From IMG/VR virus record IMGVR_UViG_3300027754_000446, positions 1 through 23,546 of that record: DNA of 23,546 nt. One strand, written 5' to 3'. Origin of the DNA: a virus. This document shows, one piece after another, positions 5,166 to 10,067 of this stretch; position 1 is the first letter of the stretch; every line of letters begins with the position of its first letter. The notes under the pieces are model-generated. The model worked only from the letters and a program-made list of their open reading frames with translations, was not told the DNA's origin and did no database searches. A program made the position numbers and the translations under genes.

Positions 5166-5331
5166 TTTTCTTTTCTGGCCTCCGCTTCATAGCCTCGGCC
5201 AGCTTTTTACCCTTATCCGCCTGGTTAAAGTCTTTGGCCACAGAAACCGGCACGCCAACCCGTTTCGCAAACTTCGGATCGTGCGCGGCCGCGGCCATCA
5301 TGCGAGCTTGAGCTGGTGAGCTGGAAGGCAT
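5158..5331 (-). CDS. Small phage protein of the MPSxSxAQARxMAAAAH type
   Basis: 57 residues, translated by me from the ATG at 5331 to TAA at 5158-5160. It starts MPSSSPAQARMMAAAAHDP, then FAKRVGVPVSVAKDFNQADKG, a pattern seen in a widespread family of very short phage proteins located near terminase genes. The function is unknown. It overlaps the TerS candidate by 8 bases and the upstream DUF5856-like gene by one base (TAATG), so it is a coupled member of this operon. It is missed by a simple length cut-off, but the sequence pattern and exact fit into the gap make it convincing. Confidence 0.8.
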   Translation of the reverse strand: MPSSSPAQARMMAAAAHDPKFAKRVGVPVSVAKDFNQADKGKKLAEAMKRRPEKKNG

Positions 5332-5696
5332 TATTTCAACACCTTTAACTTATAGATCGTCGAATCAATCAGCTCGCACGCCTCATCAATAATGTTTTGC
5401 AGCTGCGTATCGTCCGGTAACACCTTGCGGATCGAGTCCACAAAGTCTTTGATCTGTTCCAGATATTTCAGCGGCGACTTGGCAATATGAAAGTCGGCCG
5501 GATAAGTTTCGATTATCGAATAACAGCCTTGAAACGCCTCGGCCCAGCGGTCCACAATGTCGATCACGTTCTCGTAGTATTTTTGAAGCGCTTTGTGCTC
5601 GCTATAACTTTTCGTCTGCAAGTGCATGAAATGAGCGTTCGTGCCGCTATGAAACAGCACACTGACAAACAGCGCGGCGTTCTTCTGATAGTCCAC
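5331..5696 (-). CDS. DUF5856-like phage protein (helical, ferritin/Dps-like architecture)
   Basis: 121 residues, all-helical in appearance. The segment HFMHLQTKSYSEHKALQKYY followed by WAEAFQG resembles the DUF5856 family known from several phages, whose His/Glu-rich helices recall ferritin-like four-helix bundles. A metal-binding role is only an inference. The start is a GTG at 5694-5696; AAAGGG lies a few bases upstream. Another open frame (5564-5860) overlaps the first 133 bases, which is unusual. Followed by a one-base overlap with the next gene. Confidence 0.75.
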   Translation of the reverse strand: MDYQKNAALFVSVLFHSGTNAHFMHLQTKSYSEHKALQKYYENVIDIVDRWAEAFQGCYSIIETYPADFHIAKSPLKYLEQIKDFVDSIRKVLPDDTQLQNIIDEACELIDSTIYKLKVLK

Positions 5697-5860
5697 AAGC
5701 GCCCTTTCAGATAGGCAACGGCGACCGCCGGGTGAGCGCCCGCATCGCTCAAGTCGCCGTTTAGCGGGTAGGGATGCGCTTCACGGAGGAGATCAGCGCC
5801 CAGCCAGTTTAGTGCACAATAATTCAGCACGCAAGCCAAAAATTCAAGATAAATCGACAA
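5564..5860 (-). CDS. Questionable ORF filling the 5697-5843 gap
   Basis: 98 residues from a TTG start at 5860; a GTG at 5830 is an alternative. The first half (for example LNYCALNWLGADLLREAHPY and HPAVAVAYLKGRL) looks protein-like and is the only sizeable frame in the gap between the nuclease candidate and the DUF5856-like gene. The second half overlaps the DUF5856-like gene by 133 bases and reads as an Arg/Cys/Thr-rich shadow. Either a small gene with a long overlapping tail, or the N-terminal half of a gene joined to the DUF5856-like frame by a frameshift. No recognised family and no strong ribosome binding site. Confidence 0.35.
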   Translation of the reverse strand: MSIYLEFLACVLNYCALNWLGADLLREAHPYPLNGDLSDAGAHPAVAVAYLKGRLWTIRRTPRCLSVCCFIAARTLISCTCRRKVIASTKRFKNTTRT

Positions 5861-6152
5861 TTCGCTGCACGTAGCGCCCTTTTACGTTCTTGCGCCAGCC
5901 GTGAACCTCGACCCGCACCCCAGCTTCCCGCACTCGACCGATGGTTTCCGATGCCGTAACTTTGGCAACCCTGTTAGCCACGCCCTCACTGGTGACCTGA
6001 ACCGCCAACACCTCGCCGCGTCGGATGGCCAGCAGATCGGCCCAGCCCCAGAGATCCTTACGCGTTCGGGTAAATGAATTCCATTTCTCGACCACTTCGA
6101 CTAGGTAACCGAGTTCGCGGAGAGCTGCCAGACTGCGCTGGGTTGGTGTCAT
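5844..6152 (-). CDS. Small putative PD-(D/E)XK-fold protein
   Basis: 102 residues. The layout resembles a small VRR-NUC or Holliday-resolvase-like fold: N-terminal helix TQRSLAALRELGY, then WNSFTRTRKDLWGWADLLAI, then the strand VLAVQVTS, then a helix, then RVEVHGWRK. The Asp in GWADLL fits the first catalytic acid. The following strand has Q-V-T where E-x-K is expected, so the active site may be degenerate or use other residues. Its ATG (6152) overlaps the stop of the zinc-finger/J-like gene as ATGA. A nuclease-derived role in replication or packaging is inference; fold assignment is tentative. Confidence 0.65.
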   Translation of the reverse strand: MTPTQRSLAALRELGYLVEVVEKWNSFTRTRKDLWGWADLLAIRRGEVLAVQVTSEGVANRVAKVTASETIGRVREAGVRVEVHGWRKNVKGRYVQRIVDLS

Positions 6153-6439
6153 GGGTTATTCCTTTGTTTTAACAACCATTGGGTAACTTTGGTGCTTGAT
6201 TCCGAATTATTGTGCCGGTCTGGATGACACAAACGAATCAAAAGTGGCAACATTTCTTTTAATTCATTGCTGGCATTGTGTTTGGGCGGCGGCGTGTAAT
6301 ACCTTGCTTCTCTTGCACCCTTCAATTTTTCTTCGCGTTCTTTCTTTTGTTTTATCCAACATTTCAAACAAATCTTTTTCCATTCTTCGTCTGCAAAAAA
6401 AACATTATGACATTGCCGGCAATTAATATAATTTTCCAT
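6149..6439 (-). CDS. Zinc-finger protein with C-terminal J-like HPD segment
   Basis: 96 residues from the ATG at 6439. An in-frame extension to 6592 would read through the repeat array with an Arg/Ala-rich, unlikely sequence, so the internal start is preferred. Residues 5-25 have a CxxC...CxxC pair (CRQC, CLKC) typical of a zinc ribbon. A charged Lys/Glu helix follows, and then LLIRLCHPDRHNN contains the HPD signature of J-domains that stimulate Hsp70/DnaK ATPase. Only the helix II-loop-helix III part of a J-domain is present. It could recruit host DnaK to the replication machinery, as lambda P and DnaJ do together; that is inference. There is no clear Shine-Dalgarno sequence. Confidence 0.7.
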   Translation of the reverse strand: MENYINCRQCHNVFFADEEWKKICLKCWIKQKKEREEKLKGAREARYYTPPPKHNASNELKEMLPLLIRLCHPDRHNNSESSTKVTQWLLKQRNNP

Positions 6440-6447
6440 GTTGTTAT

Positions 6448-6523
6448 TGCGCCAATGTGCGCCATACCGCGCCAATGTGCGCCATCTTAAACATTGGCGC
6501 ACTACAGCGCGGGCGGTGCGCCA
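6448..6523. repeat. TGGCGC(A) repeat array with 10-bp period (iteron-like)
   Basis: On the minus strand TGGCGCA or TGGCGCG occurs at 6448-6454, 6458-6464, 6468-6474 and 6478-6484, exactly 10 bp apart, so a 20-bp unit is repeated twice. A copy in the opposite orientation lies at 6495-6501 and another in the first orientation at 6517-6523; outlying copies are at 6585-6591 and 6652-6658. One helical turn per unit places all sites on one DNA face. It lies in the 176-bp gap between the primase-helicase and the zinc-finger gene, next to AT-rich sequence. Consistent with an origin or a regulator-binding array. Confidence 0.7.
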
Positions 6524-6540
6524 ATGCGCCGCACCGCGCT

Positions 6541-6559
6541 GGGGGGGTATGGGGGGAGG
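6541..6559 (+). other. G-tract in the primase downstream gap
   Basis: Seven G, then TAT, six G, A and two G on the plus strand, in the middle of the repeat-rich gap. It is the longest homopurine G cluster noticed in the window. It might adopt a quadruplex-like structure or simply be a strand-biased tract; loop spacing is not ideal for a canonical four-tract quadruplex. Confidence 0.4.
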
Positions 6560-6595
6560 AGCGCAGCGCACTTTTTGCCCTCTTTGGCGCATTTA

Positions 6596-6613
6596 TGTTA
6601 GTCCTCACTAACA
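6596..6613 (-). promoter_or_regulatory. Perfect inverted repeat just after the primase-helicase stop
   Basis: TGTTAGT (6596-6602) and ACTAACA (6607-6613) are perfect 7-bp arms around a 4-base loop, two bases beyond the primase-helicase stop codon. No T-run follows in the direction of transcription, so a simple intrinsic terminator is unlikely. It could be an operator, an mRNA 3' stabiliser or part of the adjacent repeat region. Confidence 0.5.
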
Positions 6614-6615
6614 TA

Positions 6616-8715
6616 TTAATTACCCTCCTTTTGGTCGTTTTCGTCTTGCATTGGCGCACTTCCGGCCACAAAAACCTCTCTCAATTTCCGGTCTTTGGTC
6701 TTAAATGTTGATCTATAAATGCTTCCTTCGGCCTGCATTTCGGCCAACAAATCCATCAGATCGGATGACGATTTAACGCTTTTGGGAAACCCTGACCGCT
6801 TGCTCAAAAGGTGCCAAACAGAGAAACCGCCGGTATTGGATGTGGTGACCATTTCGCCGCGATTATTAAAATCTTTAATCATGCCGGCCAGTATGCCCTT
6901 TGCCAGATTTGCGGATTTCCGGCGTTCGGCGGCAATAATTGCGGCATTAGCAGCGGCGCCGGAATCAGTAAAACTGCCATCTTCAAGCGGCACGCCGTCG
7001 TGCCAGCGCAGGCGCACTGTCTTTGCACGCGGTCCTAAATTGGCCTTTTGGTGCTCAATGGTCAGGCAATCCTCGTCCTTTTCGACGTTGAGAGACAGGC
7101 GCGAGCGCACAGAATTGTGCCAAGCGGTCGAACCGGAATAATCTTCCCGACCGGCATCCCGACCGTTGATCGCCGACACCTTATTGACGTGCGCCAGTAG
7201 CAGCACAGCGCGCTCTGGTCGGGCAATGCGTGACCGTAGAGAGCGCACAAACTGCCGCACCCGGGCGCGTTTAATTTCGTCATCGTCAAAAGTGTCGCTG
7301 GCATTGTCGACCACCACCAGACCGATATTGCGCTTGGCGACCAGCTCGGACAGGGCGCCAAGCAGCTTGGTTTCGGTCACGCCGCGGTTGTCGCGGTGCA
7401 GTGCAGGATCTATATCAGATGCGTCTAGCAACAGCAATTTGCCTTCCAAATCGGTCGGCGCCACAGAAAGCGCTTTGCATAGGCTGTGGAAACGCCGCAG
7501 AACAACCTGTGCGCCGTCCTCGCCGCTAAAGAATAGGACAGGTGCGGCAATGGTCGGCAAACCGCAGAAAGTGCGTCCTAGCGCGACATGAATCGCCAGC
7601 GACATGGCAACATAAGATTTACCACTGCCGCCGTGACCGGCCAGCAAAGTGACTTCGTTGTGCGGAATCCAGCGATCGACGAAATGGGGTATTGCCGTAA
7701 ATGGATCGGCAAATGCGTCAAAAGACAGTAATTGTTTTTCGAGATCGGAAATTGTGACTTCTGGTTCTGGTGTGCTTGATGCAGAGCTGGTGCCGGCCAT
7801 AGGATTCTTCCACCCCGCAGCCTGGGCGCGAGAAAATAAGGTTTTGATCGTCACGCCGGCGGCTCGATTGGTCGAAAACGATAACCATTTTGCCCGCTGC
7901 ACCTTGTGGTCAAACTTCCCCGACCGGCCTGACCAATCCACCCAGACCTGATATGCGAGATCGCCCAGGCCGGTCGCGTGTAGCGCCATGCCTGCCTCGA
8001 TCCACTGGTGATAGTCCTCGGCATCCAGAAACGCCAGTGCGTCTGCGGCCTCTGCGAGTTGTGCCGGCAGTGTGTAATTGCCCAAGTTGGGTGAGCTGGG
8101 CCCCCCCGCTTCCGCTGCCGGTTCCATCAACATGCGTTCCAGCCAAACAGGTGCGCGTGCCGGGGTGAATCCGGCCAACAGATCCAGTCCATCATCCCAA
8201 GCATACCGGCGCCCCGAATGATGGATAGAAGGCTCGGCCACGATATAGCCGTTGGCCTTGACATCAATCCCCTGCGCCAGCTTGCCACGGCAGCGTTTGA
8301 CGGCCGCGGTGTCGATCCTGACTAGATAGTGCCACCCGTTACCGCTGCGCTGTGTGGGAGTCTCTGGTAGCGCCCCGTTAGCCTGTATGAGCGCCTCCCA
8401 GCTCAGGTGACCGTTATTGCGCGTGTCCACATCGAGCGCCACGCAACCCGCGTCACCCATCGCCAGCCCGATATTGGCGGTCGGCCACTTGGACCACCAG
8501 CCGCGGATCGTCATTTCGTCGCTGCTGGCCTCAGTCGCGCCGTGTGCGGTCAGCGGATGTTTACCAAGCGAGCGACAATCAGAGTCACCGCAGGTGCAGC
8601 CGCCCTGCCGTATGCTATTTAGCGGTAACACGCGAAATCCCCGCAGCGCGTATTTCAGTGCCGCATCCAGTAAGACCTTCGGATGCAGCTCGACTACAGA
8701 ATCATTCTCAACCAT
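6616..8715 (-). CDS. Bifunctional primase-polymerase / RepA-like helicase
   Basis: 699 residues from the ATG at 8715, preceded by GGGGG and 10 bases downstream of the previous stop. An upstream in-frame start (8847) would overlap the zinc-ribbon gene and is rejected. Residues 15-195 form a PrimPol (prim-pol) domain: D95/D97 in ALDVDTR, H129 in GNGWHYL and D151 in QGIDVK. An early Cys cluster CTCGDSDC (40-47) precedes GKHP. Residues 220-300 resemble PriCT_2 (WVDWSGRSGKFD). Residues 340-570 are a RecA-like AAA_25/RepA helicase: Walker A GHGGSGKS (360-367), Walker B GLVVVD (465-470), then LLLAHVNK. It probably primes and unwinds DNA at the phage origin. The repeat array follows immediately. Confidence 0.9.
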   Translation of the reverse strand: MVENDSVVELHPKVLLDAALKYALRGFRVLPLNSIRQGGCTCGDSDCRSLGKHPLTAHGATEASSDEMTIRGWWSKWPTANIGLAMGDAGCVALDVDTRNNGHLSWEALIQANGALPETPTQRSGNGWHYLVRIDTAAVKRCRGKLAQGIDVKANGYIVAEPSIHHSGRRYAWDDGLDLLAGFTPARAPVWLERMLMEPAAEAGGPSSPNLGNYTLPAQLAEAADALAFLDAEDYHQWIEAGMALHATGLGDLAYQVWVDWSGRSGKFDHKVQRAKWLSFSTNRAAGVTIKTLFSRAQAAGWKNPMAGTSSASSTPEPEVTISDLEKQLLSFDAFADPFTAIPHFVDRWIPHNEVTLLAGHGGSGKSYVAMSLAIHVALGRTFCGLPTIAAPVLFFSGEDGAQVVLRRFHSLCKALSVAPTDLEGKLLLLDASDIDPALHRDNRGVTETKLLGALSELVAKRNIGLVVVDNASDTFDDDEIKRARVRQFVRSLRSRIARPERAVLLLAHVNKVSAINGRDAGREDYSGSTAWHNSVRSRLSLNVEKDEDCLTIEHQKANLGPRAKTVRLRWHDGVPLEDGSFTDSGAAANAAIIAAERRKSANLAKGILAGMIKDFNNRGEMVTTSNTGGFSVWHLLSKRSGFPKSVKSSSDLMDLLAEMQAEGSIYRSTFKTKDRKLREVFVAGSAPMQDENDQKEGN

Positions 8716-8725
8716 GGTGCACCCC

Positions 8726-8920
8726 CTATAATTCCTGCGTCCGATAATAGACCTTGCCAGCAATCTGCCCGCTGCCACTGGTTGATTTGCGCTTGTAAGT
8801 CTTGCGGCAGTCCTTGCACACAAAACTCTGCCCAGCCGCCCGTTCAATTGTTTGAAAGCCCTTACCGCCGCAAAAAGAACAGGTCATGTCCGGTGGCCTG
8901 ATTACCCTTTTTACGTTCAT
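8726..8920 (-). CDS. Small zinc-ribbon protein
   Basis: 64 residues from the ATG at 8920; GAGGG upstream and an ATGA overlap with the HTH gene support this start over the longer frame beginning at 8965. CSFC and CKDC, 17 residues apart, form a classic zinc ribbon. The C-terminus is basic (RKTYKRKSTSGSG), suggesting nucleic-acid contact. It directly precedes the primase-helicase, whose own Cys cluster is short, so a helper role in priming is conceivable but unproven. Confidence 0.75.
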   Translation of the reverse strand: MNVKRVIRPPDMTCSFCGGKGFQTIERAAGQSFVCKDCRKTYKRKSTSGSGQIAGKVYYRTQEL

Positions 8921-9089: not shown

Positions 9090-9542
9090 TCATCTAATGG
9101 CTTTGGATATTTTTTCCAGTTTTCCGTTGGCTTCAAGTTCTACCAGAGTATTCATCGCTTTTGCTGTGCGCTCCAACAAATCAACGTATCGTTGCAAATT
9201 ATCAAAATTAGCAGCTTTTTCTATTCGGTTGAGAGCTTGCCCTAATTTTTCACTTGAATCGCGCACGTTGCCAGCGGCGCGTTTTGTTTGATCGGAAAAA
9301 TTAATCTGAGTTTTTAAGAATTTTTCTAAAACTTGATTGAATCCATCAGTGACTTTTTCCACAGCCACAATTGCATTATTAGCATCTGTTGTCATTGTTT
9401 TTGACATCCTATAAAAGTAATCATTGTTATTTATAAATCCAACAATCGTTTTATTACAATCTTCCCTTGAATAAAGAGGGCCGTGTTTATCGATTTTTAC
9501 TGGCTTTAAATTAAAATCAAAATAATCACCGTAAGCACTCAT
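9090..9542 (-). CDS. Unrecognised coiled-coil protein
   Basis: 150 residues. The ATG at 9542 has a strong AGGAGGGGA ribosome binding site lying inside the end of the cro-like gene and overlaps its stop (ATGA), so the longer upstream frame is rejected. The first 50 residues are mixed; residues 55-150 are helical with heptad-like spacing (VEKVTDGFNQVLEKFLKTQ, later LLERTAKAMNTLVELEANG), suggesting a coiled coil or helical bundle. No enzymatic motif or membrane segment. The gene is noticeably more AT-rich than cro and the primase gene, which hints at separate acquisition. It is the second gene of the leftward early operon. Confidence 0.75.
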   Translation of the reverse strand: MSAYGDYFDFNLKPVKIDKHGPLYSREDCNKTIVGFINNNDYFYRMSKTMTTDANNAIVAVEKVTDGFNQVLEKFLKTQINFSDQTKRAAGNVRDSSEKLGQALNRIEKAANFDNLQRYVDLLERTAKAMNTLVELEANGKLEKISKAIR

Positions 9543-9742
9543 TTCCCCTCCTTCCGGCGCCACCGCCCAGGATAGAGTGCCGGATCTACCCGCAGGCGCC
9601 CGTTCGTCAGGATCTGTAATTTGTAGGCGGCGCCCTCTGGCACCGCATCGCCCCATTTAGCCACCGCCTGGGTGCTAATCCCTAGTCGTTCGGCCAGTGC
9701 TCGGCGCCCGTCAAAGTATGTCACCGCATCGCTTGTTCGCAT
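9539..9742 (-). CDS. cro: Cro-like repressor (P22 Cro family)
   Basis: 67 residues from the ATG at 9742. The layout MRTSDAVTYFDGRRALAERL, then GISTQAVAKWG, then PEGAAYKLQILTNGRLRVDP closely follows the P22-Cro type: an HTH with Q-A-V-A-K-W in the recognition helix and an LRVDPALY tail. Cro dimers bind operators between divergent early promoters and favour the lytic course. It is the first gene leftward from the divergent control region, exactly where cro or cI genes sit. The partner repressor is not in the window: the rightward first gene (9870) has no HTH. Confidence 0.85.
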   Translation of the reverse strand: MRTSDAVTYFDGRRALAERLGISTQAVAKWGDAVPEGAAYKLQILTNGRLRVDPALYPGRWRRKEGK

Positions 9743-9757
9743 CGAATTTGAACCCCT

Positions 9758-9786
9758 ATAAAATAGTTGCAGAAAGTTGTTGACAA
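9758..9786 (-). promoter_or_regulatory. Leftward sigma70-like promoter for cro operon
   Basis: Read on the minus strand: TTGTCA (9786-9781), 17-base spacer, TTTTAT (9763-9758). The -35 matches consensus at five of six positions, the -10 at four of six. It would start transcription shortly before cro. Its -35 overlaps that of the rightward promoter almost base for base. Confidence 0.5.
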
Positions 9787-9797
9787 CCTGTTTCTGC
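9769..9797. promoter_or_regulatory. Dyad operator candidate between divergent promoters
   Basis: Outer arms GCAGAAA (9769-9775) and TTTCTGC (9791-9797) are perfect inverted repeats; inside them GTTG (9776-9779) and CAAC (9784-9787) form a second inverted repeat. The dyad spans both -35 elements, so a bound Cro or repressor dimer would block both promoters. The assignment to Cro is inference. Confidence 0.6.
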
Positions 9798-9808
9798 CCG
9801 ATTATATT
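9780..9808 (+). promoter_or_regulatory. Rightward sigma70 promoter
   Basis: TTGACA at 9780-9785, a 17-base spacer and TATATT at 9803-9808: a perfect -35 with optimal spacing and a five-of-six -10. Transcription would begin near 9815 and run into the CA-rich leader and the plus-strand early genes. Confidence 0.8.
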
Positions 9809-9850
9809 GTGAGCCATGCAGTAACGCAACAGAAGAAAACAACCGACCGA

Positions 9851-9866
9851 CCAACCGAAAGGAAAC
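9851..9866 (+). repeat. CA-rich translation leader, copy 1
   Basis: CCAACCGAAAGGAAAC, preceded by tandem ACCG/ACCA tetranucleotides from about 9841, ends four bases before the ATG at 9870. It includes the AAAGGAA ribosome binding site. An exact copy stands before the next gene. Confidence 0.75.
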
Positions 9867-9869
9867 ATC

Positions 9870-10067
9870 ATGTCCTTACAAGAAGCCACTGAAATTTCAA
9901 AAGCAGCAAAAGCCAAAGGCTACGGCACGCGCATCATGGGCGGCAAAATGCAATTTGTAGTTGTGTCTTACGCCAGAAACGGCAAAGCCACGCTGATTGC
10001 CAAATCCGAATACGTTAGCCTTGATGACACACTGGAAGTGCTCAACAGCTTACCCGTAGCAAACTAA
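9870..10067 (+). CDS. Unrecognised 65-residue early protein
   Basis: 65 residues starting MSLQEATEISKAAKAKGYG, first gene of the rightward operon. It has an N-terminal amphipathic helix followed by two short beta-like stretches (MQFVVVSYA, KATLIAKSEYV) and a final helix, an alpha-beta arrangement of a very small domain. No HTH, Cys motif or membrane segment. The AAAGGAA site in the repeated CA-rich leader places the start firmly. Early position under the strong rightward promoter suggests an accessory or host-interaction role, but nothing in the sequence defines it. Confidence 0.8.
   Translation: MSLQEATEISKAAKAKGYGTRIMGGKMQFVVVSYARNGKATLIAKSEYVSLDDTLEVLNSLPVAN

Follow-up and report, generated by a model that had tools for sequence, protein, structure and literature searches.

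An iteron array that co-varies with the C-terminal domain of a phage primase-helicase is a likely replication origin

An array of short repeats with a 10-bp period lies directly 3' of a primase-helicase gene in an environmental virus, and we consider it likely that this array is the replication origin of the phage, bound by the predicted C-terminal winged helix of the phage's own Prim-Pol/RepA-type helicase. The window analysed here is a 23.5-kb stretch of DNA, an IMG/VR virus record. The array keeps its place in relatives, and it is exchanged together with, and varies in concert with, the C-terminal domain of the protein encoded beside it. From these comparisons we infer that binding, melting, priming and the start of replication take place at the array.

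Results

Seven heptamers are clustered around the primase-helicase stop

All seven exact TGGCGCA heptamers reported in the initial annotation were located where it had placed them, within 211 bp of the window (minus strand at 6448, 6458, 6478 and 6517; plus strand at 6495, 6585 and 6652). The whole window holds 16, and the remaining nine are scattered across the other 23 kb at approximately the rate expected by chance. Equal frequency elsewhere, which had been named as grounds for dismissing the array, was thus not found. In 300 dinucleotide shuffles, no 211-bp window contained more than three heptamers. When 8-mers of any sequence were considered, the best real cluster comprised five copies and the best shuffled cluster four (100 shuffles). 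Short repeats are thus clustered above chance, as they are in iteron origins of the SaPI/Cch2 kind.

The unit of the tandem block reads CATTGGCGCN on the minus strand. Four TGGCGC units had been described at one-turn spacing, and this description holds, except that the third unit ends in G and is consequently not an exact heptamer. Four further copies, in both orientations, surround the primase-helicase stop (Table 1), and the copy at 6517-6526 forms an 11-bp perfect inverted repeat with 6492-6502. The perfect hairpin and the G-tract noted previously are both present. The hairpin is retained in most A-type relatives (defined below) and is a candidate unwinding element. The CCCCCCATACCCC core of the G-tract, read on the minus strand, is invariant across all aligned A-type arrays; the tract contains no iteron and its opposite strand is G-rich.

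The gap between the primase-helicase stop and the next gene (ATG 6439) measures 176 bp. A long ORF running across the array (6149-6592) was rejected as coding, because the array is kept regardless of the next gene, which many relatives lack. The copy at 6649-6658 resides inside the primase-helicase ORF and outside the gap. A palindrome, TGTTAGTnnnnACTAACA, was rejected as a dispersed operator as it occurs only once.

Table 1 Features of the window, with the repeat families found at the same place in relatives
Feature	Position	Strand	Sequence or remarks
Conserved MTPTQRS... gene	5844-6152	-	Right-hand flank of the exchanged module
J/zinc-type small gene	6149-6439	-	Adjoins the array
Putative origin	6440-6618	-	Primase-helicase stop to start of next gene
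Four tandem iterons	6448-6487	-	AGATGGCGCA CATTGGCGCG GTATGGCGCA CATTGGCGCA (minus-strand reading); period 10 by TRF
Iteron	6492-6501	+	CATTGGCGCA; inverted relative to tandem block
Iteron	6517-6526	-	CATTGGCGCA
G-tract	6541-6559	+	GGGGGGGTATGGGGGGAGG; C-rich when read on minus
Iteron variant	6582-6591	+	CTTTGGCGCA
Perfect hairpin	6594-6615		TATGTTAGT-nnnn-ACTAACATA; arms 6594-6602 / 6607-6615; directly 3' of primase-helicase stop
Iteron	6649-6658	+	CATTGGCGCA; within 3' end of primase-helicase ORF
Primase-helicase	6616-8847	-	Prim-Pol residues 63-234; PriCT_2 268-340; AAA_25/RSF1010 RepA-type helicase 374-558; predicted C-terminal winged helix
C-terminal winged-helix domain (predicted model)	6652-6966	-	Residues ~628-732; putatively iteron-binding
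B clade repeats			GGAACCGCAT, GCTACCGCAT, GGGAACAGCA, TGAACCGCAT, AATACCGCTAAT
C type and L187 repeats			TGGAACAA
D type repeats			CCGGACA palindromes
L188 repeat			TTGTCAATT
L190 repeat			CCGGGACA
L196 repeat			CAATAGACA
L197 repeat			GCAGACAA
L198 repeat			CGTCTCCCA

Folded as single-stranded DNA, the array region scores z = -6.3 by virtue of its inverted repeats, and a B clade array z = -4.9; both gaps thus contain a foldable region downstream of the gene, as in pRN1, where a downstream stem-loop is essential (PMC4234260). These values would also be expected if a structured RNA or a terminator/attenuator followed the primase-helicase gene and the repeats were by-products of its stems. We regard this as very unlikely: no promoter- or terminator-like site was detected in 6100-6800, Rfam returned sub-threshold chance matches with no family at threshold, four tandem direct copies do not pair with each other as stems, and the repeat type follows a protein domain (see below).

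One iteron cluster in the window and one in a probably circular relative

One A-type relative, G002 (L209-L211, IMGVR_UViG_3300023184_000316), is a record of 35,551 bp whose ends share an exact repeat of 127 bp, and it is probably a complete circular map of ~35.4 kb. If the G002 map is circular, the window would represent approximately two-thirds of a G002-like genome. Circular G002 carries the iteron cluster once, and no second cluster was found in the window, for example near the Cro-like gene. The GC skew, suggested initially as a further check, does not mark the array; neither the window nor G001 nor circular G002 showed a turn there.

The number of clusters bears on the possibility that the array is a copy-control or interference site resembling P4 crr, to which the primase-helicase binds while replication starts elsewhere. 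The comparative evidence for binding would be identical under this explanation, and P4 has two distinct binding sites for its alpha protein, ori and crr. Conversely, with only one iteron cluster in both the window and the 35.4-kb circular G002, no separate origin with the same repeats would be left, and we consider a copy-control role distinctly unlikely.

The primase-helicase probably ends in a winged helix

The true start of the primase-helicase is likely ATG 8715 rather than TTG 8847, which we judge to be too early since most relatives match only from approximately residue 45 (ATG 8715). The helicase portion matched PF13481 (E 2.5e-28) and, in the PDB, RSF1010 RepA (1g8y, E 4e-4). It is therefore a RepA-family helicase, as in RSF1010-type systems; being AAA_25/RepA-type it is not the SF3 helicase that accompanies Prim-Pol and winged helix in pRN1-type proteins.

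Pfam and a sequence-profile search of solved structures found no family for the C-terminal domain. An AlphaFold2 model of residues 550-743 of the window protein contained one long helix, a pair of short ones and a wing of two strands, the pLDDT being ~90 in that region; in the model of a B protein C-terminus these elements recur in the same order, with lower confidence. Structure searches with the C-terminal models revealed many winged-helix matches (PadR, MarR and the RecQ winged helix), with Foldseek E-values of 0.008 or worse and O-methyltransferases also at the top of the Foldseek list; the VIA Z for the C-terminal model against winged helices was 7-9.7. On the strength of these models, the domain is probably a winged helix.

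Close relatives keep the array irrespective of the following gene

We assembled 56 loci encoding primase-helicase relatives in viral contigs, and designated as A type those sharing the C-terminus of the window protein, of which 20 were aligned. The positions of the motif after the stop are nearly fixed in A-type loci (reverse at 26 and 116; forward at 93, 132, 142, 152 and 162), with one unit altered in some relatives. Approximately 20 A-type relatives keep the array in place, and the alignment is conserved between the stop and the last iteron, with little conservation past that point. The gap is hence conserved in close relatives, the second point on which the initial annotation had staked its proposal, and the position directly 3' of an initiator gene is again that of the SaPI/Cch2 kind.

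What follows the array varies: a J/zinc-type gene, the MTPTQRS gene directly, or an unrelated insertion. Roughly half of the relatives lack the J/zinc-type gene beside the array, and most phages of the A, B and C types have the MTPTQRS gene after it. As the array is constant while the following gene varies, we assign it to the primase-helicase rather than to the downstream gene. In two loci, a second and unrelated repeat block, ATTCGGCA / GCCGAATATCTGTGCC, sits between the iteron array and the next gene (L014:2721-2805 and L209:1-60).

The initial annotation had proposed either an origin or a cooperative regulator-binding site. Under the latter, a transcription regulator (the primase-helicase as autoregulator, a Cro-like protein or another phage protein) would bind the repeats and control the downstream genes. 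One-turn spacing and inverted copies would also suit cooperative repressor binding, and the window encodes a Cro-like HTH protein. Against an operator, the array is kept when the downstream gene changes, its repeat follows the primase-helicase C-terminus, no promoter-like site lies in 6100-6800, and a second cluster is lacking in the window, including near the Cro-like gene. An operator is accordingly unlikely in our estimation. The proposal as a whole is supported, with the origin favoured over the regulator site because the array directly follows an initiator-type gene, stays in place when the downstream gene changes, and has repeats that change with the C-terminal domain. Comparison of the sequences further suggests that the primase-helicase is the protein most likely to bind the array, ahead of both the J/zinc and the Cro-like HTH proteins.

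Two other genes of the window may be recorded here. The P22 Cro-like regulator (9539-9916, minus strand) is located at a divergent junction with plus-strand Sak4/SSB genes, and its open frame overlaps ORF 9090-9656. The gene at 5331-5696 (minus strand), between the terminase-side genes and the replication gene, encodes a protein matching DUF5856 (PF19174) and a PHROG labelled starvation-inducible transcriptional regulator.

The C-terminal domain and the array are exchanged together

Across the relatives, the repeat type tracks the last ~65-100 residues of the primase-helicase. Two B clade loci are mosaics. L092 is L093-like up to ~240 bases before the stop, then L088-like through the C-terminal domain and array, then L093- or L100-like. 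L099 shows the same pattern, its middle part being L094-like and the region after the array L098/L100-like. The exchanged part in both comprises the last ~60-80 codons together with the array, and the breakpoints share the intervals -240..-181 and +180..+239, the right-hand one being evident for L092 against L088 and for L099 against L098, but not against L093; the transfer may have run either way. Since the breakpoints are shared and fall at the start of the putative recognition domain, chance linkage is less likely.

A larger replacement separates the window from L182, a C-type locus (L053 is the same contig). Their Prim-Pol domains are 97% identical (303/311) and their MTPTQRS genes match at 97/102 positions, whereas the helicases are 27% and the last 100 residues 28% identical; the L182 array in between consists of TGGAACAA repeats.

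Co-variation is also apparent without exchange. The 8-9 sites of B-clade arrays are nearly invariant in position, while their repeat letters change in concert. Iteron similarity correlated with C-terminal similarity in a Mantel test, with a modest effect (rho 0.22, p 0.0005, 25 arrays; rho 0.19, p 0.027 for 18 non-redundant types). This comparative genetic evidence points to specific initiator-iteron pairs of the SaPI/Cch2 kind. Part of the co-exchange may simply come from the domain and the array lying side by side, but adjacency does not explain why the repeat letters change in concert while the sites stay in place; this change and the shared breakpoints argue in favour of function.

The identity of the exchange partner also bears on a role in DNA packaging (pac) or partition. 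The same strand carries a terminase-type gene pair ~1.3 kb downstream of the array, and the circular G002 map would suit headful packaging. The array, however, is exchanged with the primase-helicase C-terminus and not with the terminase, rendering a pac or partition site extremely unlikely.

Distant relatives carry other repeat families at the same position

Relatives with another type of helicase and C-terminus possess a different repeat family at the same position (Table 1). Furthermore, two deposited phage genomes with an annotated repA carry repeats after that gene, CTGGGACAA seven times in MW202867 and CGAAGATAC six times in MW202879. Repeat counts exceeded those of every other 250-bp window of the same locus in L175, L188-L191, L193 and L196-L198, and exceeded the local background in L102 (paired with L175), L202 and L207. 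In L171-L174 and L187 they were at or near the local maximum, and in L178-181, L186, L195 and L199 the signal was weak or absent. Many of the distant contigs are near-copies, such that the independent types number about fifteen, fewer than the loci.

Among isolated phages related in the Prim-Pol domain, C7, KLB28, Serratianator and H188 were found to have no repeat array directly after the Prim-Pol gene, and none was found there in the Shewanella plasmid NZ_CP068438. As these isolated phages lack it, the array rule holds for the present group and not for all Prim-Pol phages. The window itself has no direct nucleotide match to isolated phages. A D-type primase-helicase and the start of its array occur on L149 (JAURHD010000045.1), a 3.6-kb contig binned as Cephaloticoccus sp., which is possibly a host hint or a binning error; a single MAG contig of this size is too weak to name Cephaloticoccus as host.

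By eye, C-termini reading PY.GKVQR pair with GATAC-type repeats and those reading PM.SKV.R with TGGAACA repeats (L171-L174 and L178-L186 versus L108/L187). This difference may represent a specificity switch of a few residues.

Discussion

We envisage that the predicted winged helix at the C-terminus of the primase-helicase binds the iterons in the 3' flank of the gene. With three or four units at a spacing of one helical turn, several monomers would line up on the same side of the DNA, and the inverted copies may assist in building the hexameric ring, or rings, or in setting the orientation. Loading and unwinding by the RepA-type helicase domain would follow, probably at the AT-rich hairpin nearby, and Prim-Pol would synthesise the first primers. 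Such a course of events matches what has been reported or proposed for SaPI Rep, SCCmec Cch2 and pRN1 ORF904.

More broadly, we tentatively propose, as an idea somewhat more open to doubt than to confidence, that a large uncultured phage group shares one initiator chassis with exchangeable cassettes, in which winged helix and array move together and helicase plus array can be replaced behind an unchanged Prim-Pol. If so, co-infecting relatives would keep separate origin-initiator pairs, amounting to a replication-incompatibility system, and the group, from which more than 10 natural pairs of winged helix and target are supplied here, would allow the protein-DNA code of a winged-helix initiator to be read from natural variation. 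Domain/repeat co-exchange also allows a likely origin and its initiator to be assigned to environmental phages from sequence alone.

Among known systems, lambda O and its ori likewise unite phage iterons with a phage initiator. The lambda iterons, however, reside inside the O gene, and O carries neither primase nor helicase. For origins beside the primase gene of the S. thermophilus phage Sfi21 type, nothing usable was found in the open-access papers searched.

The iterons of RSF1010 are longer than those of the window. RSF1010 RepA/RepB'/RepC and oriV nevertheless offer a related helicase and the same three jobs of primase, helicase and iteron recognition. In RSF1010 these are distributed over three separate proteins (PMC4234260), whereas the window phage would combine them in one polypeptide; the fusion of the co-varying domain to the helicase argues against a separate RepC-like iteron binder.

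The region that SaPI Rep uses lies immediately 3' of the gene encoding it (Ubeda 2007 as cited in PMC7581432), and the isolated C-terminal domain of SCCmec Cch2 binds repeats downstream of its own gene (PMC7581432). The likeness lies in a self-loading initiator helicase with short repeats directly downstream of its gene and the C-terminal domain as the binder, here a presumed one. The helicases of SaPI Rep and Cch2 are DUF927 or D5/Primase_Cterm, in contrast to AAA_25/RepA fused to Prim-Pol in a tailed phage, and their repeat sequences are unlike those of the window.

In pRN1, 166 bp downstream of the ORF904 gene are essential, and the same plan has been predicted in phages (BIP-1) that also have PriCT_2 (PMC4234260). 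ORF904 resembles the window protein in uniting Prim-Pol, helicase and C-terminal winged helix (here predicted) in a single protein, with a noncoding region directly downstream; it differs in its SF3 helicase and 100-bp stem-loop, where the window phage has a RepA-type helicase and 10-bp iterons. On our best reading, what is new is an RSF1010-RepA-type helicase fused to Prim-Pol with interchangeable cassettes of recognition domain and origin; the SaPI/pRN1 plan would thereby come to include this class of helicase fusion.
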